A stretch of DNA of 40,025 nt, from assembly GCA_021789975.1 (NCBI GenBank), contig JAJYIT010000037.1, forward strand, positions 1 through 40,025, given 5' to 3'. The notes under the pieces were generated by a model. The model had not been told where the DNA came from. It did not search any database and was given only the letters and a program-made list of their open reading frames with translations. Below, in pieces: positions 6,773 to 32,203 of this stretch (its first letter is position 1; each line of letters starts with the position of its first letter). Source of the DNA: Bacteroidota bacterium. Lineage in GTDB: Bacteria; Bacteroidota; Ignavibacteria; Kryptoniales; JAKASW01. Made by a program: the position numbers and the translations under genes.

Positions 6773-7252
6773 GCTAATTAAGCCTTTTTCGGATTACCTT
6801 TGGTTTTTGGATGCCGGACGGAATCCTGAACGCTGAATCCAATCTCGTGAAACAATCCTTGCTTAGATCTAAATACTCCTTAATCCTCGGCATTTCAATG
6901 GTTAAGTCGCTTTTGCCATGGGCCATTCGGTATACCCGAAGTGGCAACCTGAAAACGAGAACGTTTTTGCGCATCGACATGCTTCACGGAGCCATACCTT
7001 CCGAATGCAGAGTCTCACCGGTAAATACTCCGAAATCTCCCGGTCCTTTTCTTGTGACGCCGTTACTCCTTAGCCTGATCTCAAGTTCCCTCACATCGCT
7101 ACCGCGCTCAACGCAAGATACATTCTCCGAGAACTGTAGGTATCGTTCTGGACCTCTTTCTTGGGGGACGTCAAAGGAAATTAAGTCTGCAATCTGACTC
7201 TATTCGGACTCCTTGGACTTTCCCGGACATAAAAAGAATTGTACCCCTTTGT
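6773..7252. other. 480-base gap without a confident gene
   Basis: Open frames exist on both strands (plus 6811-7197; minus 6774-6980 and an ATG-less frame over about 6986-7198). None has a ribosome site plus recognisable content. The ATG-less minus frame reads like protein and could be a remnant, but I could not name it. Confidence 0.35.
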
Positions 7253-7281
7253 TTGGACTTTCAAGGCAAACATAGTATAAT
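7253..7281 (+). promoter_or_regulatory. Promoter of the Ehr operon
   Basis: TTGGAC (7253-7258) and a perfect TATAAT (7276-7281) are separated by exactly 17 bases. The -10 region reads TATAATTG, which also comes close to the Bacteroidota-type TAnnTTTG element. Transcription would start near 7288, leaving a leader of only about 14 bases before the ATG at 7302, with no clear Shine-Dalgarno sequence, so the first gene may be translated almost leaderless. Confidence 0.65.
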
Positions 7282-7301: not shown

Positions 7302-7988
7302 ATGGAACTGAAGATAAAAGACATTGTCGGGCTGCTGCAGGTAAACGAGAAGACAGTTTACCGCTGGATCAAAGAGAAGAAGATACCCTGCTATCGCATC
7401 AACCACCAGTATCGGTTCAACCGGGCAGAGATCAACGAGTGGATACTCAGCAATAGAATAGAGCTGTCTTCGTCACTGATAAACCTCGGCCTCGCGGATC
7501 ACAATTTGCCGAGGCTGCTGGAGAAAGGTGGGATAGTACCGTCGGTGCCGGGTTCCAGCATCGTAGAGGTTATTACCAATGCGGTCGAACGGATACACAC
7601 TCCCCAGGGCCTGAAGAAAGAGGACATCATTCTCGCGTTGATGCGCCGCGAAGAATTGATGCCGACAGCAATCGGGAGAGGCGTGGCGATTCCTCACCCG
7701 CGCAACCCTATCGTGACTGATCCGAAGAACGCCAGCATCTCGATTTGCTACCTCGATCATCCGACAGATTTCCGCGCGCTCGACGGGCAGCCGGTTCATA
7801 CGCTCTTTATTCTGTTCACCGCCACGCCGCGCATGCACCTCGAAGTCCTCTCTAAGATTTCCCATCTCTGCCAGAACGATCTCTTCCTGGAAAATCTAAG
7901 CTCGAGAGCAACCGAGGAAGAGGTGATGAAATATGTGCGCGAGAAGGAAAAAGAGTGGCAGACGAAGGAGCGGGCAGGGAATGATTGA
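7302..7988 (+). CDS. HTH-PTS EIIA fusion regulator (excisionase-type HTH)
   Basis: The product (228 residues) carries an excisionase/MerR-like helix-turn-helix at residues 1-50 (VNEKTVYRWIKEKKIP ... YRFNRAEINEWI) joined to a PTS EIIA domain of the PtsN type (about 80-220). The phospho-accepting histidine is kept in GVAIPHPRNP. No sugar-permease genes follow; the downstream genes encode a Hyf-like membrane complex. The fusion therefore probably couples the phosphorylation state of a nitrogen-type PTS to transcription of this operon, or autoregulates it. It is the first gene after the promoter at 7253-7281, and its stop overlaps the next start by eight bases. Role in regulation is inference; domain identity is clear. 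Confidence 0.85.
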   Translation: MELKIKDIVGLLQVNEKTVYRWIKEKKIPCYRINHQYRFNRAEINEWILSNRIELSSSLINLGLADHNLPRLLEKGGIVPSVPGSSIVEVITNAVERIHTPQGLKKEDIILALMRREELMPTAIGRGVAIPHPRNPIVTDPKNASISICYLDHPTDFRALDGQPVHTLFILFTATPRMHLEVLSKISHLCQNDLFLENLSSRATEEEVMKYVREKEKEWQTKERAGND

Positions 7989-9963
7989 TTTTCTCGCCGG
8001 TGCTGCCCTGATATTTGCGGGAGGCTTCGCCGCAATTTTTGTCGTCGAAAAGGCAAAGGCGTGGGCGTTTTTCGTATTCGCCGCGGCTGCACAGTTATTC
8101 ATCCTTCCTCCCGCCTTCGGGACACTCCTTAACGGCGGTCAGCTCGTTTTGCCCGTCCATTTCTCCGGACCGATCGGCACGGCATACCTGCGACTCGATC
8201 CGCTTGCTGCACTGTTCGCTTCGGTGACTTCGGTTGGTGCACTCCTCACTTCGATTTATTCAATCGGGTACATGAAGATGTACCGAGGTCAGCGGGCTGC
8301 GCTCTCTTCGTATTTCTTCTTCGTCGGAATGATGTCCGCGTCGATGCTTCTCGTGGAGGTTACACAGAACGTGATACTCTTCCTCATCGTGTGGGAAATA
8401 ATGTCCGTCTCTTCGTTCTTCCTCGTGGCATTCGAAAACGGGGATGATGAGGTCCGCAAGTCGAGCCTTTACTATTTCATCGCGATGCAGGCGGGCGTCG
8501 CATTCCTGATCGCTGCCTTAGCATGGGCTTCGGCTGCTTCCGGTTCGCTCGACTTCTCTTCATTTGCTGCCGTGCTGTGCAAACACGACTCCGTGTCGAT
8601 GCTTCTTTTTGTCCTGTTTTTTGTCGGCTTCGGGACAAAAGCCGGCATCGTCCCGATGCACACCTGGCTTCCAAGGGCGCATCCGGCTGCGCCGACCGGT
8701 GTCTCCGCGCTCATGTCGGGAGTCATGATAAAGACCGGCATTTACGGTATACTGAGAATCCTGCTCCTCTCGGGAATCCCGGATTACAGGCTGGCTTACG
8801 GGGTACTTGTTGTCTCGGTCATCACTGGAATTTTCGGCGTCATGAACGCAATAGCGCAGCACGACATCAAGAGGCTCCTCGCGTACCACAGCATCGAGAA
8901 CATTGGCATAATCGGAATGGGCATCGGGGTCGGTATGCTGGGGCTTGTCTACAACAATCCGCTGATCGCGATGCTCGGTTTCTTCGGCGCGGTGCTCCAT
9001 GTCGTGAATCATTTCACATTCAAAAGTGTGCTCTTCTACGGAAGCGGCGTCGTCTACTCGCAAACTCACACGAGAAACATGGACAACCTCGGTGGACTGA
9101 GTAAATACATCCCGCTGACTTCTCTGATGTTTCTCATCGCTTCTCTGGCGATCACCGGCCTTCCGCTCTTTAACGGATTCATCAGTGAGCTCGCTATTTA
9201 TCTCGGCCTGGCGAGAAGTTTTTCGGAAGGCTCAATCGCCATGGTTGTCGCCGCACTGTTCGGATTTTCAGGACTGGCCTTCATCGGAGCGATGGCGCTT
9301 CTGTGTTTCACAAAAGTATACGGCATCTGTTTTCTAGGGCTACCGCGCACGAAGTATCATGTCGAACCAAATGAAAGAGAACGGACCCTACTCGTACCGA
9401 TGGGGATCCTGACCGTTGTCATCGTGGGGATAGGTCTGCTTCCATGGCTTACAATCGACCTGCTGAAGAATGTGGTAATGGAATTCGTGCCTTCTCTCAA
9501 TCCCGATCAGTTGGTCCCTTTGACCGGTATCTTCAGGACGATCTCTGGCGCACTTGCCGCTCTGATCGGTCTGACCGGCCTCTTTTTCGGACTTAGAGCG
9601 TTTCTGTTGAGAAAGCGCAAAGTCTCCAGATACAAGACGTGGGACTGCGGCTACCAGGTCGGAAGCAGCCGACTTCAGTACACGAGCAGCTCCTTCGCGC
9701 AGCCGTTCCTTCATCTCGTCGCGGAACTTGTCCCACAGAAAATCCATGTCGAGAAACAGCCGGTCTTATTTCCCGAGGAAGCTTCGCTCGAAAGTCACAC
9801 GCAGGACCTTTCAGAGAGGTACATATTCAGACCCTCGATCGGCATCTTGAACAAATTCCTGAATCTCTTTTCTTGGATACAGAGCGGAAGGATGCAGCAG
9901 TACATCATGTACGGTCTGGTCTTTCTTGTTGTTCTTCTCATCTGGATTCTGGGGATCAAATGA
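7981..9963 (+). CDS. hyfB: HyfB-like proton-pumping antiporter subunit (NuoL/Mrp family)
   Basis: The product (660 residues) is a many-helix membrane protein with the proton-antiporter core, including FGTKAGIVPMHTWLPRAHP and S-A-L-M-S-G-V-M-I-K-T-G-I-Y-G. These are conserved in HyfB/HycC and NuoL/M, where lysines and a glutamate form the proton path. Length matches HyfB. The start at 7981 (inside the previous stop, preceded by GGGCAGGGA) gives a normal hydrophobic N-terminus (MIDFLAG); longer upstream frames begin with an unlikely basic stretch. It probably forms the distal proton channel of an Ehr/Hyf-type complex together with HyfF-like and HyfE-like subunits. ATGA overlap with the next gene indicates translational coupling. 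Confidence 0.9.
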   Translation: MIDFLAGAALIFAGGFAAIFVVEKAKAWAFFVFAAAAQLFILPPAFGTLLNGGQLVLPVHFSGPIGTAYLRLDPLAALFASVTSVGALLTSIYSIGYMKMYRGQRAALSSYFFFVGMMSASMLLVEVTQNVILFLIVWEIMSVSSFFLVAFENGDDEVRKSSLYYFIAMQAGVAFLIAALAWASAASGSLDFSSFAAVLCKHDSVSMLLFVLFFVGFGTKAGIVPMHTWLPRAHPAAPTGVSALMSGVMIKTGIYGILRILLLSGIPDYRLAYGVLVVSVITGIFGVMNAIAQHDIKRLLAYHSIENIGIIGMGIGVGMLGLVYNNPLIAMLGFFGAVLHVVNHFTFKSVLFYGSGVVYSQTHTRNMDNLGGLSKYIPLTSLMFLIASLAITGLPLFNGFISELAIYLGLARSFSEGSIAMVVAALFGFSGLAFIGAMALLCFTKVYGICFLGLPRTKYHVEPNERERTLLVPMGILTVVIVGIGLLPWLTIDLLKNVVMEFVPSLNPDQLVPLTGIFRTISGALAALIGLTGLFFGLRAFLLRKRKVSRYKTWDCGYQVGSSRLQYTSSSFAQPFLHLVAELVPQKIHVEKQPVLFPEEASLESHTQDLSERYIFRPSIGILNKFLNLFSWIQSGRMQQYIMYGLVFLVVLLIWILGIK

Positions 9964-10883
9964 TGCCGAAAGCGGTAGCAGAAATCGTAATCGTTATTTC
10001 GCCTTTGTTCTTCATCGGCTTGATATCGAAAGTGAAGTCCCTCTGGGCAGGAAGAAAAGGAGCGCCGGTGCTGCAGCCGTATTATGATTTCTTCAAGCTC
10101 ATGGGCAAGGGCGAAGTAATCAGCACGACGACTTCTCCTGTCTTTAGAATAGCACCGTCAATCGGCATCGCAGCCACTTTCTTTGCGTTGACGATCATCC
10201 CGATTCCGGTTTTCGGATCGGTCATACATTTTGAAGGAGATTTCGTCCTCTTTGCATACCTTCTCGGACTTTCCAAGTTTCTCATGGTGCTTGGCGCGCT
10301 CGACACCGGCAGCAGCTTCGAAGGAATGGGTGCGAGCAGGGAAGTCACTTACTCCACGATCGTAGAAACTGCGTTCTTCATAGTGATCGGTTCGCTCGCA
10401 CTACTGACACGCCATTTTTCCTTCGAGACTATATTTGCTTCCGTGAACCTTGCTTCGGGCTTCTCGCCGCTCGTGAAGATACTTCTCGTGGTATCTCTCT
10501 TCATAATGCTGCTCGCAGAAGGGAGCCGCGTGCCGGTAGACGATCCGAACACTCATCTCGAACTGACCATGATTCATGAGGTGATGGTGCTCGACTATTC
10601 CGGCCCGGACCTGGCTTTCATTCAGTACACGGCATCGTTGAAGATGACGATAATCTCGATCCTGATAGCCGATCTCCTTGTGCCTTCTTCGCTGGCGCTC
10701 ATTCCGGCGTGTGCGCTCTCCGCATCGATCGTGGCTCTCGTGTTCGTTTCGGTCGGGGTCGTCGAATCGCTCATCGCTCGGTCCAGAATTTCCCATATCC
10801 CGCAGTTTCTTTTCCTTATGACCACACTCTCGCTTACCTCGTTTGCGGTCGTGGCGTTCTTTCTCTTCGGGATAATCAGATGA
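9960..10883 (+). CDS. hyfC: HyfC/NuoH-like membrane anchor subunit
   Basis: The product (307 residues) is a NuoH/HycD-type membrane subunit with about eight helices. Family signatures are visible: P-V-L-Q-P-Y-Y-D near the N-terminus, S-F-E-G-M-G-A-S-R-E in the middle, and R-V-P-V-D-D-P-N-T-H-L-E-L-T-M-I-H-E, whose acidic residues line the proton entry under the hydrophilic arm. This subunit connects the membrane part with the HyfG/HyfI-like peripheral arm. Start ATGATG at 9960/9963 overlaps the previous stop; which of the two is used cannot be decided. Its stop overlaps the next ATG. Confidence 0.9.
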   Translation: MMPKAVAEIVIVISPLFFIGLISKVKSLWAGRKGAPVLQPYYDFFKLMGKGEVISTTTSPVFRIAPSIGIAATFFALTIIPIPVFGSVIHFEGDFVLFAYLLGLSKFLMVLGALDTGSSFEGMGASREVTYSTIVETAFFIVIGSLALLTRHFSFETIFASVNLASGFSPLVKILLVVSLFIMLLAEGSRVPVDDPNTHLELTMIHEVMVLDYSGPDLAFIQYTASLKMTIISILIADLLVPSSLALIPACALSASIVALVFVSVGVVESLIARSRISHIPQFLFLMTTLSLTSFAVVAFFLFGIIR

Positions 10884-11515
10884 CAAGCATACTGATAATA
10901 CTTCTCGGCACCACGATGCTGTATGTTTCGTCCGTAAGCAGGATCGAAGCTTACGTGAAGACGCTGGCGGCGCAGGGCTTTCTTCTCTTTCTCCTCGTGA
11001 TGGTCGGCGTAAAGGAGATGAGCGGGCTGAACATCGCGTTTCTTGTTTTCGAGACGCTCATCGTCAAGGCGATTGTGATCCCTTATTTTCTGCTGAAGGT
11101 GATTCGTAAGAACGAGACTCCGCGCGAGATCGAACCTTATATCTCACAGTTCTATGCGCTTCTTGTGGCGACCGCAATTTTTGTTTTCGGGTTCGTCGCT
11201 GCATTCTGGGCGGCCCGCACCGGTAGCGACATAAAGCCTCTCTACTTCGGCATTTCCATAGCGATGATGATGCTGAGCCTCTTCCTCATCGTCAACCGGA
11301 AGCGGATCATCACGCACATCCTCTGTTACATGATGCTCGAAAACGGGATATTCCTCCTGTCTCTCTCCGTGGCAAACGAGCTCCCCATGCTCGTGAACAT
11401 CGGAGTGCTTCTCGATCTGTTCGTCGCCATCTATCTCTTTGCAATCTTCTTCAACAAGATCAACGAAATATATGATGGAAGTCATGTCGATGTCCTGACG
11501 GAGCTGAAAGATTGA
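10880..11515 (+). CDS. hyfE: HyfE-like membrane subunit (NuoK-related)
   Basis: The product (211 residues) has about six hydrophobic helices and matches HyfE in size and character. The family sequence A-Y-V-K-T-L-A-A-Q-G near the N-terminus and H-I-L-C-Y-M-M-L-E-N-G in the second half are kept; the E-N-G motif resembles the NuoK glutamate used in proton transfer. It starts at ATG 10880 within the previous stop (ATGA) and lies one base before the next gene. Expected role: membrane linker between the HyfC-like and antiporter-like subunits. Confidence 0.87.
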   Translation: MTSILIILLGTTMLYVSSVSRIEAYVKTLAAQGFLLFLLVMVGVKEMSGLNIAFLVFETLIVKAIVIPYFLLKVIRKNETPREIEPYISQFYALLVATAIFVFGFVAAFWAARTGSDIKPLYFGISIAMMMLSLFLIVNRKRIITHILCYMMLENGIFLLSLSVANELPMLVNIGVLLDLFVAIYLFAIFFNKINEIYDGSHVDVLTELKD

Positions 11516-11516
11516 A

Positions 11517-12983
11517 ATGATTACCCTCGTCTTTATACTTCCGCTCGCATTCGGGCTGATAAGCTTTGTCTTGAAAAGAAAGTTTGTCAACCGGGCTGCG
11601 CTTCTCGGGTCTGCCGCTATCTTTGTCGCGGTCACGCTTCTGGTTTGGCTGAGAATCGAGTGGACGTGGCTTCCGAATTGGTTACTCGTGTTTTTCAGAT
11701 TTGACAGCATAGGTCTCTTCTTCTTCGCTGTAATGGCGATCGTTTTTGCGGGAGTGTCCTTCTACAGCCTTTCATATTTCCGTGAACATAATCTCACCGC
11801 GCGTCAGGAGTCGGTATATATTCTGGAAATGCTCGCCTTCGTGGTGGCGATGGCAGGCGTAATACTTGCAACAAACCTCGCTCTTCTCTGGGTATTCGTC
11901 GAAGCGACTACCCTGACGAGTGCGCTGCTCATATACTTCGAGAAGAAGAAATCTTCGCTCGAAGCAACCTGGAAATATATCTACATCTGTTCGGTCGGTA
12001 TCGCGCTCGCATTCGTCGGGATAACAACTCTTTCAATAGGGAGCGAGAGTATCGGATCTCTCTTCTTTAATGACCTGTACCTTCACGCATCGGAGATTAA
12101 CCCGGTGTGGCTGAAGCTTTCCTTTGCGTTCCTGTTCGTCGGGCTTGGGACAAAAGTGGGTGTGGCTCCCATACATGCCTGGCTCCCCGATGCACACTCC
12201 GAAGCTCCGTCGCCGGTGTCCGCGCTCCTCTCGGGAACGCTGCTCAACTCAGCTTTCCTCGGCATACTTCGCGTGGAGGAGATTCTTGTTCGCGCTGACC
12301 AGCAGACGTTCTCAAATATAATACTCCTCCTCACCGGGTTTCTTTCGCTTCTTGTCAGCGCGGTCTACATGCTTCGGGTGAAAAATTACAAGCGGATGCT
12401 GGCATACTCGTCTGTCGAGAACATGGGAATCATGTTCATCGGTGTCGGACTCGGCCAGCCCGGCCTCTTTGCGGCGATGCTCCAGACAATGGCGCATTCT
12501 TTTTCCAAGACCTCACTCTTCCTCACTTCGGGCAATATTCTTCATAGATACGGCACTAAGAAGATCGAAGATGTCCGCGGATTATTGAAAAGGGATCCTG
12601 TCACAGGCTGGATTTGGATCGTGTCGTTTCTCTCGATAATCGGCATCCCGCCCTTCCCGATTTTCATAAGCAAGTTTTTTATCATAAGGGCGTTCTGGAC
12701 AAACGGCGAGGGATGGCTTGCCCTCTTGTTTTTCCTTTTCATCGTCGTCGTGACTTTCGGAATGGGGAACGCAGTCTTCAGGATGGCCTTTGTCGACAGC
12801 GATACTGAAAGTACAGGTTCCGTGAAGCTGGCTTTGTCTGCGTATCTGCCTCAGATCGTTTTGTTGGCAGTGCTGGTGGTAGTCGGGATAAACATGCCGA
12901 ATCTTATCAATGAGATGTTGAGCAATGCCGCCGCATTCATTTCAAGCGGTCCGGCCGCGGCGGTCAAGGTGGCAGGAAAATGA
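11517..12983 (+). CDS. hyfF: HyfF-like proton-pumping antiporter subunit
   Basis: The product (488 residues) is a second NuoL/M/N-type antiporter subunit of HyfF length. The conserved segment G-L-G-T-K-V-G-V-A-P-I-H-A-W-L-P-D-A-H-S-E-A is present, as are the E-A-T-T-L-T-S-A acidic helix and K-R-M-L-A-Y-S-S-V-E-N-M-G. With the HyfB-like protein the complex has two antiporter subunits, so it could move several ions per turnover. Its stop overlaps the start of the hyfG homologue (ATGA at 12980). Confidence 0.9.
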   Translation: MITLVFILPLAFGLISFVLKRKFVNRAALLGSAAIFVAVTLLVWLRIEWTWLPNWLLVFFRFDSIGLFFFAVMAIVFAGVSFYSLSYFREHNLTARQESVYILEMLAFVVAMAGVILATNLALLWVFVEATTLTSALLIYFEKKKSSLEATWKYIYICSVGIALAFVGITTLSIGSESIGSLFFNDLYLHASEINPVWLKLSFAFLFVGLGTKVGVAPIHAWLPDAHSEAPSPVSALLSGTLLNSAFLGILRVEEILVRADQQTFSNIILLLTGFLSLLVSAVYMLRVKNYKRMLAYSSVENMGIMFIGVGLGQPGLFAAMLQTMAHSFSKTSLFLTSGNILHRYGTKKIEDVRGLLKRDPVTGWIWIVSFLSIIGIPPFPIFISKFFIIRAFWTNGEGWLALLFFLFIVVVTFGMGNAVFRMAFVDSDTESTGSVKLALSAYLPQIVLLAVLVVVGINMPNLINEMLSNAAAFISSGPAAAVKVAGK

Positions 12984-14485
12984 ACGGCGCTGAAGAAATG
13001 AGCTGGCTCGAAACAAGGAACCTGCAATCTGTCGCACTCGGCGAGATACCGGTGCATCCGATCGAAATGCTGAGACGGCACGTCATCGACAGTGTCGCGG
13101 CAGGAAAGAGGCTTGTCCAGTTCTTCGGTGACCGGACCGACAGTGGCGACACTATATACGCGGTACTTGCCGATGATAATGCATCGAGACTGTATATCGC
13201 TTCTTCGTTGCTTCGGGGGAGGAAGAGTTTTGCCTCGATGACTCCTGAAGTTCCTGCCGCTCACCTTTTCGAAAGGGAGCTGTACGAGGAGTTCGGTATC
13301 GAACCTGTCGGCCATCCGTGGCTGAAGCCGCTCCGGAAAGGTATACCGGGAATAGATGAGAACGAGGACCAATACGGGTTCTTCAGCATGAAGGGCGAGG
13401 AGGTGCATGAGGTCGGGGTTGGACCCATACATGCTGGTGTAATCGAGCCCGGACACTTCAGGTTCTCCTGTCACGGCGAGAAAGTGTACCAGCTCGAGAT
13501 CAAGCTTGGCTTCCAGCACCGTGGAGTGGAAGAGCTGTTTGTGAGAAACGCAAGTCGTCCCATTTATCTCGAGAAGCTGGCGGAGTCGGTAGCGGGCGAC
13601 ACCGTTATCGGACATGCGGGTGGATTCATCCGCGCATATGAATCGCTTGCCGGGACATCTGTCCCCAGGAGAGCAAAGGTAATTCGCACGGTAGCGCTCG
13701 AGCTTGAAAGAATAGCGGTTCATCTTGGAGACCTTTCCGCTCTTTCGGGCGATGTGGCATATCTAACGGGAAATTCCGTGTTCGGTGCGCTGCGGACAAA
13801 GGTCATAAACACGACGATGGCCATCTGCGGCAATCGTTTCGGAAGGGGATTGATGAAATTGGGAGGCGTCGATTTCGATTTCACGCCCGACCTGCACGAT
13901 CGAATCCTGGACACGATTAATAAACTGGAAGACGATGTTGCCCTCGCGTCAGAGGTGCTGTTTTCCTCGGCATCCGTTCTCGAAAGATTCGAGAAGACAG
14001 GCGTGGTCAGCAAGGAAACCGCGACGGCCATCGGGATGGTCGGTCCCGCTGCCCGCGCAAGCGGCGTTCCGGTCGACGTGCGCTCGGACCATCCGTTCGG
14101 TGGATTCGAGTTCCTTGCCGTACATAAGCTGACGCTTCCAGGCGGAGATGTCTTTGCCAGAGCATATCTAAGGTTCATAGAGATACAGCAGTCGTTAAAG
14201 ATTATCAGCGAACAGCTTGGCGGATTGACTGTGGGTCCAGTCAGGCAGACGGCGGGTTTACCCGCCGCCGACCGCATAGTCGTTTCGCTTACGGAAGGCT
14301 GGCGCGGCGAGATCGCTTACGTCCTAATCTCAGACAGCGAAGCAAATATCAGAAAAGTGAAAGTCAAAGATCCCTCGTTCAACAACTGGTTCGCACTTTC
14401 GCTCGCCGTGCGCGGGGAGGGAATCTCCGATTTCCCGCTGTGCAATAAGAGCTTCAACCTCTCATATTGCGGGTTCGATTTATGA
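12980..14485 (+). CDS. hyfG: HyfG-like large subunit lacking NiFe ligands (Ehr-type)
   Basis: The product (501 residues) joins a NuoC-like domain (about 1-155) and a NuoD/hydrogenase-large-subunit-like domain (about 165-501), as in HyfG and HycE. The alignment anchor V-P-R-R-A-K-V-I-R-T-V-A-L-E-L-E-R is clear. Where hydrogenases have C-G-I-C, this protein reads A205-G-D-T208; where they have D-P-C-x-x-C, the C-terminus reads N-L-S495-Y-C-G498. All four nickel-iron cysteines are thus gone (Cys497 is one position off). No C-terminal processing peptide follows. Loss of both motifs defines the energy-converting-hydrogenase-related (Ehr) complexes described in Geobacter. The protein probably acts as a quinone- or ferredoxin-linked scaffold and cannot make or oxidise hydrogen at a NiFe site. 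Confidence 0.88.
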   Translation: MNGAEEMSWLETRNLQSVALGEIPVHPIEMLRRHVIDSVAAGKRLVQFFGDRTDSGDTIYAVLADDNASRLYIASSLLRGRKSFASMTPEVPAAHLFERELYEEFGIEPVGHPWLKPLRKGIPGIDENEDQYGFFSMKGEEVHEVGVGPIHAGVIEPGHFRFSCHGEKVYQLEIKLGFQHRGVEELFVRNASRPIYLEKLAESVAGDTVIGHAGGFIRAYESLAGTSVPRRAKVIRTVALELERIAVHLGDLSALSGDVAYLTGNSVFGALRTKVINTTMAICGNRFGRGLMKLGGVDFDFTPDLHDRILDTINKLEDDVALASEVLFSSASVLERFEKTGVVSKETATAIGMVGPAARASGVPVDVRSDHPFGGFEFLAVHKLTLPGGDVFARAYLRFIEIQQSLKIISEQLGGLTVGPVRQTAGLPAADRIVVSLTEGWRGEIAYVLISDSEANIRKVKVKDPSFNNWFALSLAVRGEGISDFPLCNKSFNLSYCGFDL

Positions 14486-14503
14486 GTCAATCGCAGGAGT
14501 GAA

Positions 14504-15262
14504 ATGCTGGACTTGCTCAAGCTAAGAAGGAAACACGGAAGTCAGGCGATTCCCGACGTAGTGAACGCGGAGCTGATGGAAAGCCATCGGGGGTTTCCGG
14601 TTATCGACGAAACGAAGTATCCTGGCGATTGGCAAAGCATAGTAGATATCTGTCCGACCGGGGCGATCTCGAAGGAGCCTGTCTCAATTGACCTCGGTAA
14701 GTGCATCTTCTGCGGCGAGTGTGAGAAATTATCGGGCGGTGCCGTCAGGTTCACCAACATACACAAGACCGCAGCATCGGACAGAAGACATTTGATCGTC
14801 GCCTCTGGATCTGAATACGACAGCTATCGTGAAAATGCTGTCGAGGTTAAGAGAGAGATACATAAACTCTTTGGCCGATCGTTGAAGCTGAGGCAGGTAT
14901 CAGCCGGCGGATGCAACGGCTGTGAAATGGAGCTGAACGCCTGCAGTAACGTCAACTTCGATATGGGAAGGTTCGGGATAGATTTTGTGGCATCGCCTCG
15001 ACATGCGGACGGAGTTGTGCTGACAGGTCCCATCACAAAGAACATGGCCCCGGCTTTGATGGACGCTTACCAGAGCATCGGTGATCCGAAGGTTGTGATT
15101 GCAGTCGGAGCCTGCGCGATAAGCGGCGGGGTTTTTGCAGAATCGGCTCAGATGAACAGATCATTTCTCAATGATGTCAAAGTCGACCTCTATGTTCCCG
15201 GCTGTCCGCCGCATCCGCTTACTTTCATAAACGGTGTGCTTGAATTTCTGGGAATATCGTAG
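14504..15262 (+). CDS. Ferredoxin-NuoB (HyfI-like) fusion subunit
   Basis: The product (252 residues) has an N-terminal ferredoxin-like part and a C-terminal NuoB/HyfI part. The ferredoxin part keeps one four-cysteine set, Cys50 (in CPTGA) with Cys67, Cys70 and Cys73 (CIFCGEC); the other CxxCxxC set normally found in HyfH is missing, so one [4Fe-4S] cluster is expected instead of two. The NuoB part keeps its cluster ligands Cys137, Cys140, Cys204 and Cys234 (GGCNGCE, GACA, PGCPP). It would pass electrons between an external carrier and the cluster next to the HyfG-like subunit. AGGAG precedes the ATG. It closes the operon; no hyfA, hyfD, formate dehydrogenase or hydrogenase-maturation genes are present. 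Confidence 0.88.
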   Translation: MLDLLKLRRKHGSQAIPDVVNAELMESHRGFPVIDETKYPGDWQSIVDICPTGAISKEPVSIDLGKCIFCGECEKLSGGAVRFTNIHKTAASDRRHLIVASGSEYDSYRENAVEVKREIHKLFGRSLKLRQVSAGGCNGCEMELNACSNVNFDMGRFGIDFVASPRHADGVVLTGPITKNMAPALMDAYQSIGDPKVVIAVGACAISGGVFAESAQMNRSFLNDVKVDLYVPGCPPHPLTFINGVLEFLGIS

Positions 15263-21754: not shown

Positions 21755-24700
21755 ATGAAAAACTCTTACCATTTCAACCACTTATCCCTTTTTACCCTTA
21801 TCTCCTATACCTTTGTACCTTTGCTTCTCCTCGCCTGTACTTCGGCTTTTGCCCAGACAGCCGTTGCACCTTCAGGCAGCGGAACGGCTTCTGATCCGTA
21901 CCAGATTGCAACATTAAGCAACCTCTATTGGGTTACGCAAAATTCCAGTTCGTGGGGCTCATATTTCAAGCAGACCGCAGACATCGACGCATCCGCCGAC
22001 ACCACCTGGTCATTAGGAGCAGGATTTACTCCGATTGGTGGGGGTGGAACAAGCTTTACCGGCCTGTATGACGGAGGTGGACATACGATTTCCGGTTTGT
22101 ACATTTCCCGAAGCGGAACTCAAAACATTGATATGTTCGGCTATACCCAGGCAACCATAAGGAATATCGGGCTCGTCAATGAGAATATCAGTGGATATAT
22201 AAATGTCGGTGGACTCATAGGAGGAACCGATTACAGCAGCGTGAGCAACTGTTACACTACCGGAAGCGTTAGCGGCAACGGTTTTGTCGGCGGCCTCGTG
22301 GGCTATGCGTCGTCGGACGGTTCGAACAGCTTGATAACCAATAGCTATAGCACGGCAAGTGTCTCTGTAATTACTGTTAGCGGCAGCGGGGGGTTTGGTG
22401 GGCTGGTGGGCCTGAATACGTATATTTTTGGAGGCAGTGCCTCGATAACCGATAGCTACAGCACCGGAAGAGTCAATGCCGGTTCTGGCAGTTTGTATGT
22501 TGGCGGGCTTGTTGGCGAGAACGATTTGGGCACAGTCACCAACTCCTTCTGGGACGCGACGACTTCCGGCAAAGGTGGAAGTGCCGGCGGCACCGGCGAG
22601 CCTACCGACAGCATGAAAACAGAATCGACATTTACGAGCCGCGGCTGGGATTTCGATTCGACCTGGGCGATTGGTACTTCCATGAACAACGGGTATCCGG
22701 GATTACTGTGGCAGGCCGGCTATACGGCTCCTCCGGCACCGACACTCGCATCACCCGCAAACAATGCAACTAATCTGCCGACAACCGATACCCTAAGGGT
22801 CATTTCCGCCACCGGAGCGGAGGGCTATTCGTGGCAGGTCTCGCCGAGTGCGGCTTTCTCATCTTTCATCTACTATGATTCGACCGCCGGTATAGGCGAT
22901 ACCGTTCACGTGGTAAATCTAACAAATGGCACCCGGTACTACTGGCGGGTATTTGCGTACAATTCTATAGGAGCAAGCCCGTTTGCTGGACCGGATTCGT
23001 TCACGACTATCGTGGCTGCGCCGCCGGCTCCGGTTCTCGCCTCACCAGCTAACAGATCAACAGACCTTTCACCGCAGCTCGTGCTGGAAGTCATGTCGGC
23101 ATCCGGCGCGTCGGGCTACCGCTGGCAGGTTTCTCTCAACTCCGTTTTTTCTCCAAATGTTATCGATGATTCCACGAGCGGCATCGGGGACACTGCCAAC
23201 AGTGTGGCTTTGATTCCGGCGAGGAAGTACTACTGGCGAGTACTTGCGTACAATGTCGGCGGTCAGAGCGCATATGCAAGTCCTGACTCTTTTACAACCA
23301 TGGCAGTCAGTGGCCATCCTGAACTTGTTTATCCTCCGGACAATGCGCAGGACATACTTGCCGACACGGCGGTCTTCAAATGGAACCCGGGCTACTACGC
23401 AACGAGTTACATCTTCCAGCTCTCTAAAAGCTCTTCGTTCTCTTCATACGTTGTCAACGACTCAAACATCGTGGACACTTCAGAGATTGCGACAGGACTC
23501 ACCAATTTGACGAAGTACTACTGGCGTGTGAGCGCAAATAATCTTTCAGGTACCAGCATATTCGGTGTGGACTCATTCACTACAGTTCCCGCGCCTCCAG
23601 CGTCGCCGGCCCTTGCCTTTCCCGGCAATGGCGCAATGAGCCAACCGGCAAACACGACGCTGAAAATAGATGCTGCGTCCGGGGCATCGGGATATCATTG
23701 GCAGATTTCCGTCGACTCTTCATTTGCATCGATGGTTCTGAACGATTCAACGAACGGCGCCGGGGATACGGCACATGTCGTCGCACTTGCTAATGGTAAG
23801 TTGTATTATTGGCGGGTACAGGCGTACAACATTGGCGGAGGGAGTCCGTATGCTGGACCGGATTCGTTTGCGACAGTTGTAGGTGCGCCATCTGCACCGA
23901 CTTTGGCATCCCCAATGAACAATGCAGCGAACCAGCCAATTGAACTTGCGCTGGAAATAGATCCGACGGGCAATGCGACAGGTTACAATTGGCAGGTGTC
24001 CACCGATCCGGCTTTCCAGTCGACCGTCGTCAACGACACGACGAGCGGTGAAGGAGACACCGCACAAGTAGTCAACCTTCAGAATAACACGAAGTACTAC
24101 TGGCGGGTAGAAGCATTCAGTGTCAGTGGAGCCAGCGGATTCGCAAGTACCGATTCGTTCACAACTATAATTGGTATTCCGACTTGTGTGTGGCCCCCGG
24201 CGAACGCTTCAAACTTGCCCGCGATCCTTACTTTGAAAATCAATCCGGAAGGCGGAGCCGCGGGATATCAATGGCAAGTCTCAACAAGTCCGACATTCTC
24301 AACGATGATAATCAACGATTCGACGAGGAGTGCCGGGGACACGTTAATGTCGGCGACTTTTGTGGCCGGCATCAAATACTACTGGCGAGTAAGGGCTTAT
24401 GGCACTTATGGTGCGAACTCGTTCTCGGGTATAGACTCATTTACCGTAATGACTGCGCCTGCTGCACCGCTGCTTGCGTCACCGGCAAACAATTCGGCAT
24501 CTCAGCGGGCGGATAGCTTGATACTGAAATGGAATCGAGTTGACGCGGACAGTGGGTACATATGCGAGGTTTCGACCACCCCATCGTTTACATCATCACT
24601 TGCAGTGAAAGACACAACGAGAGATACGACGCTTGAAGTAAGCTCATTGAAAAACCTGACCAAATACTACTGGCGAGTGAGCGCATATAACGCCGGAGGG

Positions 24701-25366
24701 ATGGGGGCTTATTCTTCAGTTGACTCATTCACAACCATCATTGCGGTGCCTTCTGCACCAACGCTTGCATCACCGGTTGGAGCAACTGGTGAGCCTCGCA
24801 GGGCGACATTGCAGTGGAGGCCTTCGATTGATGCAAAGACGTATCATCTTCAGGTTGCCACGGCCGATTCGGTTGACAGCCTTGGCGGCTTCCTGGGAGC
24901 ATACGTTGCGTTCGATACGACGGTTTCCGACACTGCCGTGAGAGTATGGACTCCTCTTGCGGCCAAGACAGAATATTATTGGCACGTGAATGCGGCCGAT
25001 ACGGGAGGAACAAGCGGTTATTCTGTCACGGCAAGTTTCACAACCGGCACCGGTGTAGACGGGATCGATGATGTTACCGGAGCGCCAAAGTCGTATGCTC
25101 TTTACCAGAACTATCCTAACCCGTTCAACCCGAGCACCACTATAAGTTTCGATTTGAAAGAGCCTTCTATGGTGACGCTGCAAATATATAATGTGCTTGG
25201 TCAGAGTGTGGCACACTGGAACTACGGGATGATGAATGCAGGAAGATACGATAAGGAAGTAAACCTGTCGGAGTTTGCCAGCGGTGTATATTTCTACAGG
25301 CTTCAAGTAGTCGGGATGAAGGGTGAGAGGTTCGTGTCTGTCAAGAGGATGATGATGCTGAAGTAG
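21755..25366 (+). CDS. Large surface protein: GLUG repeats, eight Fn3-like repeats, T9SS sorting domain
   Basis: The product (1203 residues) starts with a signal peptide (about 1-33, cleavage after AFA). Residues about 35-315 contain GLUG-type repeats (GGLIGGTDYSSVSNCYTTG, GGLVGYA, GGLVGLN, GGLVGEN), a right-handed beta-helix often seen in adhesins. Eight fibronectin-III-like repeats of about 95 residues follow, each with A-P-x-L-A-S-P at its start and Y-Y-W-R-V near its end. The C-terminus is a canonical T9SS sorting domain (YALYQNYPNPFNPSTTISFD, NVLGQSV, SGVYFYRLQ, final K). It is probably a secreted or surface-attached adhesin or matrix-binding protein; no catalytic domain is visible. AAGAAGAG precedes the ATG. 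Confidence 0.92.
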   Translation: MKNSYHFNHLSLFTLISYTFVPLLLLACTSAFAQTAVAPSGSGTASDPYQIATLSNLYWVTQNSSSWGSYFKQTADIDASADTTWSLGAGFTPIGGGGTSFTGLYDGGGHTISGLYISRSGTQNIDMFGYTQATIRNIGLVNENISGYINVGGLIGGTDYSSVSNCYTTGSVSGNGFVGGLVGYASSDGSNSLITNSYSTASVSVITVSGSGGFGGLVGLNTYIFGGSASITDSYSTGRVNAGSGSLYVGGLVGENDLGTVTNSFWDATTSGKGGSAGGTGEPTDSMKTESTFTSRGWDFDSTWAIGTSMNNGYPGLLWQAGYTAPPAPTLASPANNATNLPTTDTLRVISATGAEGYSWQVSPSAAFSSFIYYDSTAGIGDTVHVVNLTNGTRYYWRVFAYNSIGASPFAGPDSFTTIVAAPPAPVLASPANRSTDLSPQLVLEVMSASGASGYRWQVSLNSVFSPNVIDDSTSGIGDTANSVALIPARKYYWRVLAYNVGGQSAYASPDSFTTMAVSGHPELVYPPDNAQDILADTAVFKWNPGYYATSYIFQLSKSSSFSSYVVNDSNIVDTSEIATGLTNLTKYYWRVSANNLSGTSIFGVDSFTTVPAPPASPALAFPGNGAMSQPANTTLKIDAASGASGYHWQISVDSSFASMVLNDSTNGAGDTAHVVALANGKLYYWRVQAYNIGGGSPYAGPDSFATVVGAPSAPTLASPMNNAANQPIELALEIDPTGNATGYNWQVSTDPAFQSTVVNDTTSGEGDTAQVVNLQNNTKYYWRVEAFSVSGASGFASTDSFTTIIGIPTCVWPPANASNLPAILTLKINPEGGAAGYQWQVSTSPTFSTMIINDSTRSAGDTLMSATFVAGIKYYWRVRAYGTYGANSFSGIDSFTVMTAPAAPLLASPANNSASQRADSLILKWNRVDADSGYICEVSTTPSFTSSLAVKDTTRDTTLEVSSLKNLTKYYWRVSAYNAGGMGAYSSVDSFTTIIAVPSAPTLASPVGATGEPRRATLQWRPSIDAKTYHLQVATADSVDSLGGFLGAYVAFDTTVSDTAVRVWTPLAAKTEYYWHVNAADTGGTSGYSVTASFTTGTGVDGIDDVTGAPKSYALYQNYPNPFNPSTTISFDLKEPSMVTLQIYNVLGQSVAHWNYGMMNAGRYDKEVNLSEFASGVYFYRLQVVGMKGERFVSVKRMMMLK
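22730..25050 (+). repeat. Tandem Fn3-encoding repeats, period about 285-290 bp
   Basis: The segment TACTACTGGCGGGTA or a close variant recurs near 22940, 23230, 23520, 23808, 24095, 24380, 24670 and 24975. Similarity between units is clear at protein level and partial at DNA level, so the array is old enough to have diverged. Confidence 0.75.
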
Positions 25367-25963: not shown

Positions 25964-26764
25964 GTGATGCTGCAGGGTAAGATATTCGACATAAAGAGGT
26001 ATGCACTCCATGATGGCCCCGGTATCAGGCAAACCGTTTTCTTTAAAGGGTGTCCGCTTCGCTGCTGGTGGTGCCACAACCCCGAGAGCCAATCCATAAA
26101 GACAGAAATCATCACGAGAGAAATGAAGCTCGACGGAGATTCTTACTACGAGGATGTGCCGGTGGGCCGTCTGATGACGGTAGATGATGTGATGGCAGAA
26201 GTATTGAAGGAAACGGTTTTCTATGATGAGTCGGGAGGCGGCGTCACTTTTTCGGGAGGCGAACCGCTCCTTCAGGCTGAATTCCTCAAGGCACTCGCCG
26301 CCGAATGCCGCAGGGACAACATCCACACCGTTTTAGACACGTGCGGATATGCAAATCCGGAAACAGTCGACTCCGTCGCCGATCTTATCGACCTGTTCCT
26401 GTTCGACATAAAACTGATCGACGAGGAGCGACATCGGGAATATGCCGGGGCATCGAACCGAATCATTCTCCAGAACTTGCGCCGCCTCGCCGCGAACGGA
26501 CATAAGATCATCATTCGGTTCCCAGTTATTCCCGACATCACCGATACGGATGAGAATATCGCGGGACTCATCGGTCTTCTGCATTCGATCCCATCTATGA
26601 ATGAAGTGGATCTTCTCCCGTATCACTCGATAGCAAATCATAAATACCTGCAGTTTGAGATGGAAAACAAAATGAAAGATGCTCAGCCTCCTTCCGATGA
26701 GCGCATGAACATGTTGAAGGAGCATTTTGAGCAAAATGGCTTCAGCGTGAAAATCGGAGGATAA
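25964..26764 (+). CDS. Glycyl-radical enzyme activating enzyme (radical SAM)
   Basis: The product (266 residues) is a radical SAM protein with the cluster motif C-P-L-R-C-W-W-C, preceded by the family signature HDGPGIRQTVFFKGC, and SAM-binding segments SGGEPL and DTCGY. It would cleave S-adenosylmethionine to install the glycyl radical on the enzyme encoded two bases downstream. Most activases of non-pyruvate-formate-lyase enzymes carry a ferredoxin insert with eight extra cysteines; this one has only a short linker (residues about 45-70) with no cysteine, so it resembles the pyruvate formate-lyase activase. The start is GTG 25964 or ATG 25967; neither has a clear ribosome site. Confidence 0.92.
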   Translation: MMLQGKIFDIKRYALHDGPGIRQTVFFKGCPLRCWWCHNPESQSIKTEIITREMKLDGDSYYEDVPVGRLMTVDDVMAEVLKETVFYDESGGGVTFSGGEPLLQAEFLKALAAECRRDNIHTVLDTCGYANPETVDSVADLIDLFLFDIKLIDEERHREYAGASNRIILQNLRRLAANGHKIIIRFPVIPDITDTDENIAGLIGLLHSIPSMNEVDLLPYHSIANHKYLQFEMENKMKDAQPPSDERMNMLKEHFEQNGFSVKIGG

Positions 26765-26766
26765 GT

Positions 26767-29130
26767 GTGAGCGAAAGAATCCAGCGTCTGCGAGAACAAA
26801 GTCTGAATGCTATAAACAGAATATCACCCGAGCGTGCTGTGCTCGTCACGGAGTTTTACAAAAGTGACATCGCGGAATCGGTTTCGGTTCCTGTAAAGCG
26901 GGCATTGGCATTTCAATACATCCTTGCCAACAAAAAGATCTGCATCAATGACGGAGAGCTCATCGTCGGCGAGCGCGGCCCGGCACCAAAGGCTACCCCG
27001 ACTTACCCGGAAATATGTCTCCATTCACTTGAAGATCTTGATACGCTCGACTCACGTCCCAAGGTCTCATTCAAGGTCGATGACGAAACGAGGCGAATCT
27101 ACAAAGACCTGGTCATTCCTTACTGGCAGGGAAAGACAATCCGCGAGAAACTTTTCTCTTCGGTCGATAGCCAGTGGGTAGACGCGTACGAATCCGGGCT
27201 TTTCACAGAGTTTCTGGAGCAGCGCGCGCCGGGGCACACCGCCAACGGCGGCAAGATCTACCGGAAGGGCATGCTTGATCTCAAAGAAGACATCAGACAT
27301 TCGATCGAGGCGCTGGATTTCTTCAACGATCCGCACGCGTACGAGAAACGTGAAGAGCTCAAAGCGATGGACATCGTCGCAGACGCAATAATCATGTTTG
27401 CCGGGCGTCATGCGGACGCGCTTGATCAGCTTGCGAAGAAGGAAAAGGATGGTGTACGAAAGCGAGAGATGGAAGAGATGGCTGCAATCTGCCGCCACAT
27501 CCCGGCCCATTCGCCGCGCACTTTCCACGAGGCGCTGCAGTATTACTGGTTCGTACATATCGGCGTTATCACGGAGCTGAATCCGTGGGACTCGTTCAAC
27601 CCCGGACGGCTCGATCAACATCTTTATCCGTCCTACAAGAATGGACTCGAATCGGGGACGCTCACCGAAGAATGGGCGAGAGAGCTTCTGCAGGCGTTCT
27701 GGATAAAATTCAACAATCATCCTGCACCGCCGAAAGTTGGAGTCACGGCGGCGGAAAGCGGCACGTATACGGATTTCGCCCTGATAAATCTCGGCGGCGT
27801 CAAGGCTGACGGCTCGGACGCGGTAAACGATCTTACATTTCTCATACTCGACGTCATCGAAGAGATGAGAATCCTTCAACCAAGCTCCATGATACAGGTG
27901 AGCAAGAAAAATCCCGACCGGTTTATAAAACGCGCCGCCAAAATCATTCGAACAGGATTCGGCCAACCGTCCGTCTTCAACACCGATGAGATCGTCCAGG
28001 AGCTTGTGCGCCAGGGAAAATCATTGGAAGATGCCCGGAACGGCGGAGCGAGCGGCTGCGTCGAAAGCGGCGCCTTCGGCACCGAGAGTTATATACTCAC
28101 GGGATATTTCAACCTGGTGAAGATTTTCGAAATTACTCTGCACAACGGCGTGGACCCCCGCACCGGAAAGGAAATCGGAATTCGCACGGGCGATCCGACA
28201 ACATTCACTACGTTTGATCAGCTTCTTCAGGCGTTCAAGAAGCAGGAAAACTATTTTGCGGACATAAAGGTCAAAGGAAGCAACATCATCGAGCGGCTTC
28301 ACGCCGATTACCTCCCGGTCCCATTCCTATCTGTCCTCATCGATGATTGCATCACGAAGGGAATCGACTACAATGCGGGCGGCGCAAGGTACAACACGAA
28401 CTACATCCAGGGAGTCGGACTCGGCAGTCTCACGGACATCCTCACTTCCATCAAGTACAACGTTTTCGATAAGAAGAATTTCACGATGGGTGAGCTGATG
28501 AATGCACTCGACGCAAACTTCCAGGGATATGAGAAGCTCCGTGCGGATTTGGTCTACCACACACCGAAATACGGGAACGACGACGACTATGCCGATGAGC
28601 AAGCAGTCAGGATATTCGATATCTTCTACGACTCTGTCAACGGCAGACCGAATACGAAAGGCGGAGTCTACAGGATCAACATGCTTCCGACGACCTCACA
28701 TGTCTATTTTGGCAGCGTGACGTTGGCAACTCCGGACGGCAGAAAAGCGCACGAGCCTCTCTCGGAGGGCATCTCGCCCGTGCAGGGAGCGGATACGAAA
28801 GGGCCGACAGCAGTTGTCAAATCCGCGTCGAAGATCGACCATATCAAGACCGGCGGGACGCTGCTCAACCAGAAATTCTCCCCGCATCTGCTTGATTCCG
28901 ACGATGGCATCAGTAACCTGACCTCTCTGATCCGGAGTTACTTCAGGCTGGATGGCCATCATATTCAATTCAACGTCGTGACAGCCGAAACGCTGCGCGA
29001 TGCTCAAAAGCATCCGGAGAAGTACCGCGATCTGATCGTCCGCGTGGCCGGCTATAGCGATTACTTCAGCGACCTCGGCAAAGAGCTCCAGGACGAGATC
29101 ATCAGGAGAACGGAACAGCAGAGCTTCTAG
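26767..29130 (+). CDS. hypD: Glycyl-radical enzyme, probable trans-4-hydroxy-L-proline dehydratase
   Basis: The product (787 residues) has the thiyl cysteine in SGCVESGAFG (Cys431) with Glu433 and the glycyl-radical loop RVAGYSDY (Gly762). Comparing with residues I recall for Clostridioides difficile HypD (His160, Asp278, Ser334, Phe340, Cys434, Glu436, Tyr450, Thr645, Gly765), this protein has the same amino acid at each position with a constant offset of three: His157, Asp275, Ser331, Phe337, Cys431, Glu433, Tyr447, Thr642, Gly762. The predicted reaction is anaerobic dehydration of trans-4-hydroxyproline to 1-pyrroline-5-carboxylate, which ProC would reduce to proline; no proC is in the window. 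GTG start, GGAGG six bases upstream. The symbol is unrelated to hydrogenase-maturation HypD. Confidence 0.87.
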   Translation: MSERIQRLREQSLNAINRISPERAVLVTEFYKSDIAESVSVPVKRALAFQYILANKKICINDGELIVGERGPAPKATPTYPEICLHSLEDLDTLDSRPKVSFKVDDETRRIYKDLVIPYWQGKTIREKLFSSVDSQWVDAYESGLFTEFLEQRAPGHTANGGKIYRKGMLDLKEDIRHSIEALDFFNDPHAYEKREELKAMDIVADAIIMFAGRHADALDQLAKKEKDGVRKREMEEMAAICRHIPAHSPRTFHEALQYYWFVHIGVITELNPWDSFNPGRLDQHLYPSYKNGLESGTLTEEWARELLQAFWIKFNNHPAPPKVGVTAAESGTYTDFALINLGGVKADGSDAVNDLTFLILDVIEEMRILQPSSMIQVSKKNPDRFIKRAAKIIRTGFGQPSVFNTDEIVQELVRQGKSLEDARNGGASGCVESGAFGTESYILTGYFNLVKIFEITLHNGVDPRTGKEIGIRTGDPTTFTTFDQLLQAFKKQENYFADIKVKGSNIIERLHADYLPVPFLSVLIDDCITKGIDYNAGGARYNTNYIQGVGLGSLTDILTSIKYNVFDKKNFTMGELMNALDANFQGYEKLRADLVYHTPKYGNDDDYADEQAVRIFDIFYDSVNGRPNTKGGVYRINMLPTTSHVYFGSVTLATPDGRKAHEPLSEGISPVQGADTKGPTAVVKSASKIDHIKTGGTLLNQKFSPHLLDSDDGISNLTSLIRSYFRLDGHHIQFNVVTAETLRDAQKHPEKYRDLIVRVAGYSDYFSDLGKELQDEIIRRTEQQSF

Positions 29131-32181: not shown

Positions 32182-32203
32182 CAACGTGTAAAAGGAGGTT
32201 ATG

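Follow-up and report, generated by a model that had tools for sequence, protein, structure and literature searches.

An Ehr complex with an emptied NiFe pocket in an ignavibacterial genome: conserved parts and possible function

A hydrogenase-4 (Hyf) type membrane complex whose large subunit has no metal-binding cysteines raises the question of what such a complex is for. An operon of this kind lies at positions 7302-15262 (+) of a 40,025-nucleotide stretch of Bacteroidota DNA (contig JAJYIT010000037.1, our C19; the whole stretch is called the window below), which is part of a 4.70 Mb genome in 85 contigs. Close relatives are found in Ignavibacteria-like Bacteroidetes metagenome-assembled genomes (MAGs). 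The original prediction, made from the window alone, held that the complex could not be a NiFe hydrogenase, likened it to energy-converting hydrogenase-related (Ehr) complexes and proposed an electron-transfer reaction such as ferredoxin-quinone. The first two statements were borne out; ferredoxin-quinone as the likely reaction was not supported. With somewhat better than even confidence, we read the sequences as those of an ion translocator that redox chemistry drives or triggers and whose acceptor is something other than a quinone, neither a hydrogenase nor a quinone reductase of the complex I type. The seven genes, in order, are:

7302-7988, +, regulator with HTH_17 and phosphotransferase system (PTS) EIIA-type (PTS_EIIA_2) domains (Pfam PF12728, 1.1e-13; PF00359, 2.9e-25)
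7978-9963, +, HyfB-like antiporter subunit, NuoL/M type (NF005086, hydrogenase 4 subunit B, 4.1e-151, under the curated cut-off)
9942-10883, +, HyfC/HycD (NuoH-like) membrane anchor (PF00146, 8.7e-33)
10874-11515, +, HyfE, with a NuoK-like C-terminal part (NF008556, 9.9e-21; PF00420 weak)
11517-12983, +, HyfF-like antiporter subunit, NuoM/N type (NF005044, 1.1e-102)
12980-14485, +, NiFe-less large subunit (EhrL), 30 kDa and 49 kDa domains (alignments, AlphaFold model)
14504-15262, +, small subunit (EhrS), Fer4 and Oxidored_q6 domains (cluster-ligand cysteines)

The hyfB-like gene shares 11 bases with the end of the regulator gene. All seven genes are under purifying selection (dN/dS 0.06-0.13 against two close relatives), and the gene order is constant over about 80 loci.

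The emptied NiFe pocket and its family

The large subunit was aligned pairwise, by profile and in multiple alignments with E. coli HycE (7z0s_E), E. coli and Proteus HyfG, Pyrococcus MbhL and Nqo4. All of these confirmed the predicted replacements at the four NiFe cysteine positions, A205 and T208 aligning to the CGIC and S495 and G498 to the DPCxxC of NiFe enzymes. Since all four ligands are missing, NiFe catalysis is excluded. A hydrogenase with displaced CxxC pairs was rejected as well, as the whole 12980-14485 product was inspected and holds no such pair. Among 82 relatives, most have C (39) or A (35) at position 205, all but one have S or T at 208, and S495 and G498 are each present in every sequence, as are G206, D207, Y496, D500 and L501. 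The signature of the pocket is E156, GD[ST] at 206-208, R442 and a C-terminal NKSFNLSYCGxDL. The protein ends three residues past G498, where HyfG runs on into a C-terminal extension; in this alignment the maturation extension of group 4 NiFe hydrogenases is absent from the window protein. Hydrogenases are cleaved during maturation at the position that matches this end. The purifying selection and the invariant replacements together indicate that the operon is not decaying.

The AlphaFold model of the large subunit (pLDDT 86) is closest to HycE (7z0s_E; Z 45.9 over 482 residues, rmsd 2.6, 26% identity), followed by the 49 kDa chains of complex I (Z about 42, about 350 residues). The proton path of formate hydrogenlyase (FHL), taken as the residue set of PMC9474812, is partly kept, as judged by alignment: E156 (the beta1-beta2 Glu), H248, E401 and R442 correspond, and the canopy Asp position is Asn in 74 of the 82 relatives and Asp in eight. 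The quinone ligands of complex I are replaced, Nqo4 His38 of the beta1-beta2 loop by E156 and Tyr87 by G206, while the NuoD copies of the same genome retain the complex I motifs. By these residues the pocket is hydrogenase-like without a metal, and not complex-I-like.

A maximum likelihood tree of 60 large subunits (IQ-TREE, LG+C20 PMSF) placed all 42 NiFe-less rows in a single clade with support of 100/100, with Hyf/Hyc as its sister (100/96). Mbh and a CxxC enzyme from the window's own phylum branch outside this clade, and NuoD forms its own group, so the window protein falls outside both active group 4 hydrogenases and complex I. The two results that would have told against the prediction, a CxxC pair elsewhere in the protein and a place within the active enzymes, were both sought and neither was found. 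Antiporter-like membrane subunits and a NuoH-like anchor lie within one operon, as in Ehr complexes. Gene order, cysteine losses and tree agree, and by its sequences the operon is one encoding an Ehr complex. The name Ehr comes from a Geobacter complex, and the relatives found include lineages termed Ehr in the literature (Melainabacteria, Spirochaetes, Lentisphaerae). Ehr complexes have been reported from Melainabacteria, Margulisbacteria, Saganbacteria, Nitrospira, Sulfobacillus, Mycobacterium and ammonia-oxidising archaea, with a function given as unknown or merely proposed (PMC6349859, PMC10284858, PMC4378227, PMC10432482, PMC6728331).

Some relatives carry more than one set of genes. One uncultured-bacterium MAG has two tandem Ehr large/small subunit pairs from different sub-clades (L037, 252-2024), and plasmid 3 of Variovorax sp. 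PBL-E5 has two Hyf-like operons about 3.4 kb apart (L143, 3956-19479).

Iron-sulfur clusters and the ion path

The N-terminus of EhrS is a fused half-ferredoxin domain which retains the ligands of the inner cluster only (C50, C67, C70 and C73). From the NuoI ligand pattern we take this cluster to be the equivalent of N6b, next to N2. All four ligands of the outer ferredoxin cluster are gone in the window copy and its near relatives; the full eight ferredoxin cysteines are present in some Spirochaetes, Variovorax and others. The N2-type cluster has C137, C140, C204 and C234 as ligands, and its motif, GGCNGC, has the CxxC spacing of hydrogenases and not the tandem CC of complex I. EhrS aligns to MbhJ without gaps, with the same loop length and four proximal-cluster cysteines. 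All eight cysteines of the inner cluster and N2 were kept in 78 of 78 members of a first relative set. In a larger set of 157 small-subunit rows, a few of them duplicated, 143 keep both clusters, and none of the Fe-S clusters is present throughout the family.

The original prediction also proposed a conserved ion-pumping arm, and this agrees with the residues seen. E140, K221, K298, K349 and E404 are conserved in the HyfB-like subunit and E129, K213, K292 and K331 in the HyfF-like subunit, while E142, E193 and E207 of HyfC are conserved across all groups compared. With few exceptions these ion-path residues are common to Ehr, Hyf and two NuoL/M copies of the same genome, and the membrane arm is a predicted ion translocator.

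The regulator, the fluoride-riboswitch relatives and the surroundings

The first gene of the operon encodes an HTH_17 domain (residues 3-51) fused to a PTS EIIA-type domain (72-214). The active-site phospho-histidine of EIIA is His132, in AIPHPR, and is invariant in five aligned copies from diverse phyla. Such a gene heads the operon at loci of Ignavibacteria, Caldithrix, Brevinematales, Omnitrophota, Spirochaetes, Lentisphaerae and FCPU426; it comes first in all lineages with enough flank, except in Melainabacteria and at the N2-less loci described below. PF02896 matches were used for the phosphorylating enzyme, frames of about 580-630 amino acids being read as EI (PtsI) and those of about 900 as PPDK. 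EIIA and EI were found together in 23 genomes, EIIA without EI in two, neither in 14 (all Melainabacterial) and EI without EIIA in none. Another PTS element occurs near an Ehr operon in Burkholderia pyrrocinia, where a gene for an HPr-like phosphocarrier is located some 3.3 kb upstream (L153, 256-519).

A candidate operator is found just upstream of the regulator gene:

7215-7260, +, three GGAC[AT]T boxes (at 7215, 7225 and 7255)

There were 20 GGACWT boxes in 13 upstream regions of the ignavibacterial lineage, compared to 2.2 expected and a maximum of eight in 500 shuffles; there was no enrichment in nine loci of other phyla. The motif was picked after the sequences had been seen, and as an operator of the ignavibacterial group the cluster is suggestive only. 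An HTH operator shared across phyla was rejected, its k-mers being AT-rich and barely above shuffles.

A sister clade of NiFe-less complexes, on plasmids of Burkholderia, Caballeronia and Mycobacterium branderi, has four members directly downstream of fluoride riboswitches:

L151, 4392-4462, fluoride riboswitch
L200, 3971-4041, fluoride riboswitch
L199, 3863-3933, fluoride riboswitch
L198, 3600-3673, fluoride riboswitch

This clade has support of 99/99, and its joining to Ehr 100/100. Enolase, inorganic diphosphatase or crcB genes are annotated nearby in its records. Two of the loci, those of B. cenocepacia and B. multivorans, also have a DUF190 gene, which Pfam types as PII-like in B. cenocepacia, together with inorganic diphosphatase and crcB, and more fluoride riboswitches are adjacent. 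Genes under fluoride riboswitches have been reported as formate hydrogen lyase (PMC11139923, PMC2864571), and among the genes found with these riboswitches Na+/H+ antiporters come next in frequency after exporters (PMC11139923). The large subunits of the sister clade are without both CxxC motifs and therefore, if these are the same genes, cannot be the reported formate hydrogen lyase. The riboswitch context points to a role in ion and pH homeostasis for at least this sister branch.

Elsewhere in the window, open reading frames (ORFs) at 25964-29130 read as a glycyl-radical-enzyme activase and a PFL-like glycyl radical enzyme. By eye, the proteins encoded at 487-1866 and 21755-25366 look secreted and have C-terminal tails resembling those of type IX secretion, and the genes at 29995-35593 resemble glycoside hydrolases.

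Possible function and comparison with known systems

The explanation we favour, an ion translocator driven or triggered by redox chemistry, would work as follows. The HyfB-C-E-F membrane arm, with its chain of ion-path residues intact, would be capped by the NiFe-less large subunit and the small subunit. Because the outer cluster is gone, a low-potential one-electron donor, most simply ferredoxin, could dock directly on the exposed inner cluster, from which electrons would pass to N2 and on to the emptied pocket. That electron event would drive or gate ion movement through HyfB and HyfF. The acceptor is not H+ at a NiFe site, nor, probably, a quinone held in the manner of complex I. The complex would then serve ion, pH or proton-motive-force homeostasis and not H2 chemistry, and its expression would probably be set by the EIIA-HTH regulator through phosphorylation by the PTS proteins EI and HPr. 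The established portion of this mechanism, as far as sequences can establish it, comprises the composition, the missing NiFe site, the conserved pocket, the ion-path residues, the cluster inventory and the purifying selection.

Several observations weigh against this explanation. The ferredoxin domain is absent, leaving N2 only, in Rhizobium, Bradyrhizobium, Azospirillum, Cupriavidus, Burkholderia pyrrocinia and Methylocalor. Within the window's own class, five genomes belonging to four genera have D-[A/C]-D-N in place of the N2 ligands, with the inner cluster intact; the copies are:

L122/L189 (G058:C31), EhrS with D-[A/C]-D-N
L160/L190 (G368:C110), EhrS with D-[A/C]-D-N
L161/L191 (G369:C116), EhrS with D-[A/C]-D-N
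L162 (G365:C23), EhrS with D-[A/C]-D-N
L207 (G669:C123), EhrS with D-[A/C]-D-N

In Meiothermus the ligands are T-D-E-S, again with the inner cluster intact. Given these losses of N2 and, in Proteobacteria, of the ferredoxin domain, electron transfer as a conserved step may not be what the complex is chiefly for. The link to fluoride belongs to a sister clade whose genes are ordered differently, and neither the fluoride riboswitch (RF01734) nor any other Rfam family was matched in the window at the gathering threshold. The association of EIIA with PtsI comes mostly from a single clade, and as EI is present without an adjacent EIIA gene in three N2-less genomes, the rule holds in one direction only. 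The premise that Ehr is an electron-transfer enzyme does not extend to all members, N2 having been lost in six distinct relatives and the proteobacterial copies being without a ferredoxin domain. In the tree the N2-less copies of the window's class nest inside the window's family and Meiothermus branches apart on a long branch, which makes at least two separate losses of N2 likely. One N2-less genome (G365) additionally bears a normal EIIA-linked Ehr copy, on C22, and Allomeiothermus silvanus plasmid pMESIL01 carries two near-identical Ehr operons, both N2-less with T-D-E-S (L145, L197). Seven other Ehr-type loci, searched for riboswitches, had none.

The same losses lend some weight to a possible, though rather doubtful, alternative: a redox-independent or redox-gated cation/proton antiporter, with the HyfBCEF arm Mrp-like, the large and small subunits a structural or sensory cap, and the Fe-S clusters a switch and not a wire. 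The N2-less copies keep the inner cluster and the pocket motif, and three complete N2-less operons and Meiothermus keep nearly all of the key Glu and Lys residues of HyfB and HyfF and the acidic residues of HyfC; the antiporter modules of complex I, once isolated, let protons through with no redox input (PMC11496545). A purely structural cap, however, would have no need of both clusters, as retained by the window copy and most small-subunit rows, and the hydrogenase proton-path residues kept in the pocket also speak against it. A ferredoxin:quinone oxidoreductase like photosynthetic NDH-1, the reaction first proposed, is unlikely. The fold is also close to the 49 kDa subunits and the genome has MqnA-type menaquinone genes, but hydrogenase-type residues stand in the places of the quinone His and Tyr, the N2 spacing is that of hydrogenases, and the complex persists where quinone synthesis is not detected. 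In a survey of 50 genomes carrying the complex, 28 lacked over-cut-off matches to both MqnA/D and MenD, and four of these (G019, G028, G039, G041) also lacked any UbiA-family gene, although MAG incompleteness, divergent MenD or scavenging of quinone precursors could account for such absences. In gut Gastranaerophilales there is a lone UbiA-like gene, at about 50-75 bits compared to MenA-type NCBIfam cut-offs of 102 to 346, and it is an orphan, with no men or mqn genes beside it in the three neighbourhoods read. UbiA alone was rejected as a marker of quinone dependence because it is too broad, a MenD-like match in G035 was rejected as it reads as acetolactate synthase, and a rule of complementarity with Rnf was rejected because Rnf is absent in the window lineage yet present in Spirochaetes with Ehr.

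A sulfane-sulfur (polysulfide) reductase like MBS is very unlikely. MBS, a complex I relative with ferredoxin input, likewise does without NiFe chemistry and quinone ligands and uses its proximal cluster (PMC7684303), but it needs a loop three residues shorter with a three-Cys proximal cluster, where EhrS has four cysteines and the loop of MbhJ, and it has no counterpart of the invariant pocket E156. Just as improbable is a formate dehydrogenase-Ehr complex of which the operon would supply the membrane portion. Such a complex was suggested for Margulis- and Saganbacteria on a link that is indirect and is called untested there (PMC6349859); across the roughly 80 loci compared, no gene family, and hence no conserved catalytic partner, recurs beside the operon outside close relatives. 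The chance of an active or merely degenerate NiFe hydrogenase is negligible. In the window neither hyp nor fdh genes were found, as originally stated of the neighbourhood. Elsewhere in the genome hypA, hypB, hypF, hypD and hypE are present on C3 (hypD by HMM, the others read from ORFs), so a genome-wide absence of hyp cannot be used as an argument here; another NiFe large subunit, on C33, can account for these genes. HypD is missing from 36 of the 50 genomes with the complex, and the four ligands, the C-terminal extension, the purifying selection and the invariant replacements all count against such an enzyme.

A wider proposal, that Ehr complexes are ion pumps or antiporters with optional electron transfer and not oxidoreductases of an undiscovered substrate, is quite possible while short of probable. 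Lineages would separately have dropped NiFe, the outer cluster, the ferredoxin domain or N2 but kept the membrane arm along with a pocket in remodelled form, the complex I architecture being re-used for ion homeostasis under EIIA, as here, or under a fluoride riboswitch, as in the sister clade. Ehr is spread over many phyla, and its hosts include gut bacteria, nitrifiers and mycobacteria. With the electron wiring lost in some lineages and the pump kept, its function becomes newly testable: natural variants that are N2-less, lack the ferredoxin domain, live without detectable quinone synthesis or lie behind fluoride riboswitches separate the hypotheses. If N2-less forms pump ions, the complex I fold works without an electron wire, which bears on the coupling of redox and ion movement in complex I. 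The sister clade also suggests that some fluoride-riboswitch genes reported as formate hydrogen lyase cannot be that enzyme. Searches of the open-licence PMC literature turned up no account of the N2-less forms, the EIIA link or the tie to the fluoride-riboswitch clade.

Compared to known systems, the window complex shares with described Ehr complexes the HyfB/C/E/F-type arm and a large subunit without NiFe CxxC motifs; it differs in the half-ferredoxin small subunit and the EIIA-HTH first gene, neither of which was found described in that literature. Hyf and FHL-1 (Hyc) of E. coli are the sister group, with the same membrane subunits and with HycE closest to the model, but they have an active NiFe site, a C-terminal extension, separate Fe-S subunits and maturation genes. 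MBS of Pyrococcus also combines a non-NiFe pocket in a complex I relative with ferredoxin input, and differs in that its proximal cluster has three Cys ligands and sits on a shortened loop, two of the former NiFe cysteines are kept and the pocket Glu is absent. Complex I/NDH-1 has homologous 49 kDa and 20 kDa subunits, NuoH and antiporter subunits, whereas the window operon is without the quinone His/Tyr, the tandem-Cys N2, NuoEFG and a separate NuoI. The genome has two nuo loci of its own, on C2 and C9 (L103, L104); one is nuoBCDEF and the other nuoABCDHJKLM-like, and the NuoD of C9 is strongly unlike that of C2. The fluoride-riboswitch complexes have the NiFe-less large subunit and HyfB/C/E/F arm in common with the window, and differ in the order C-E-F-L-S-B, a full 8Fe ferredoxin domain (in the copy inspected), the upstream riboswitch and other pocket residues.

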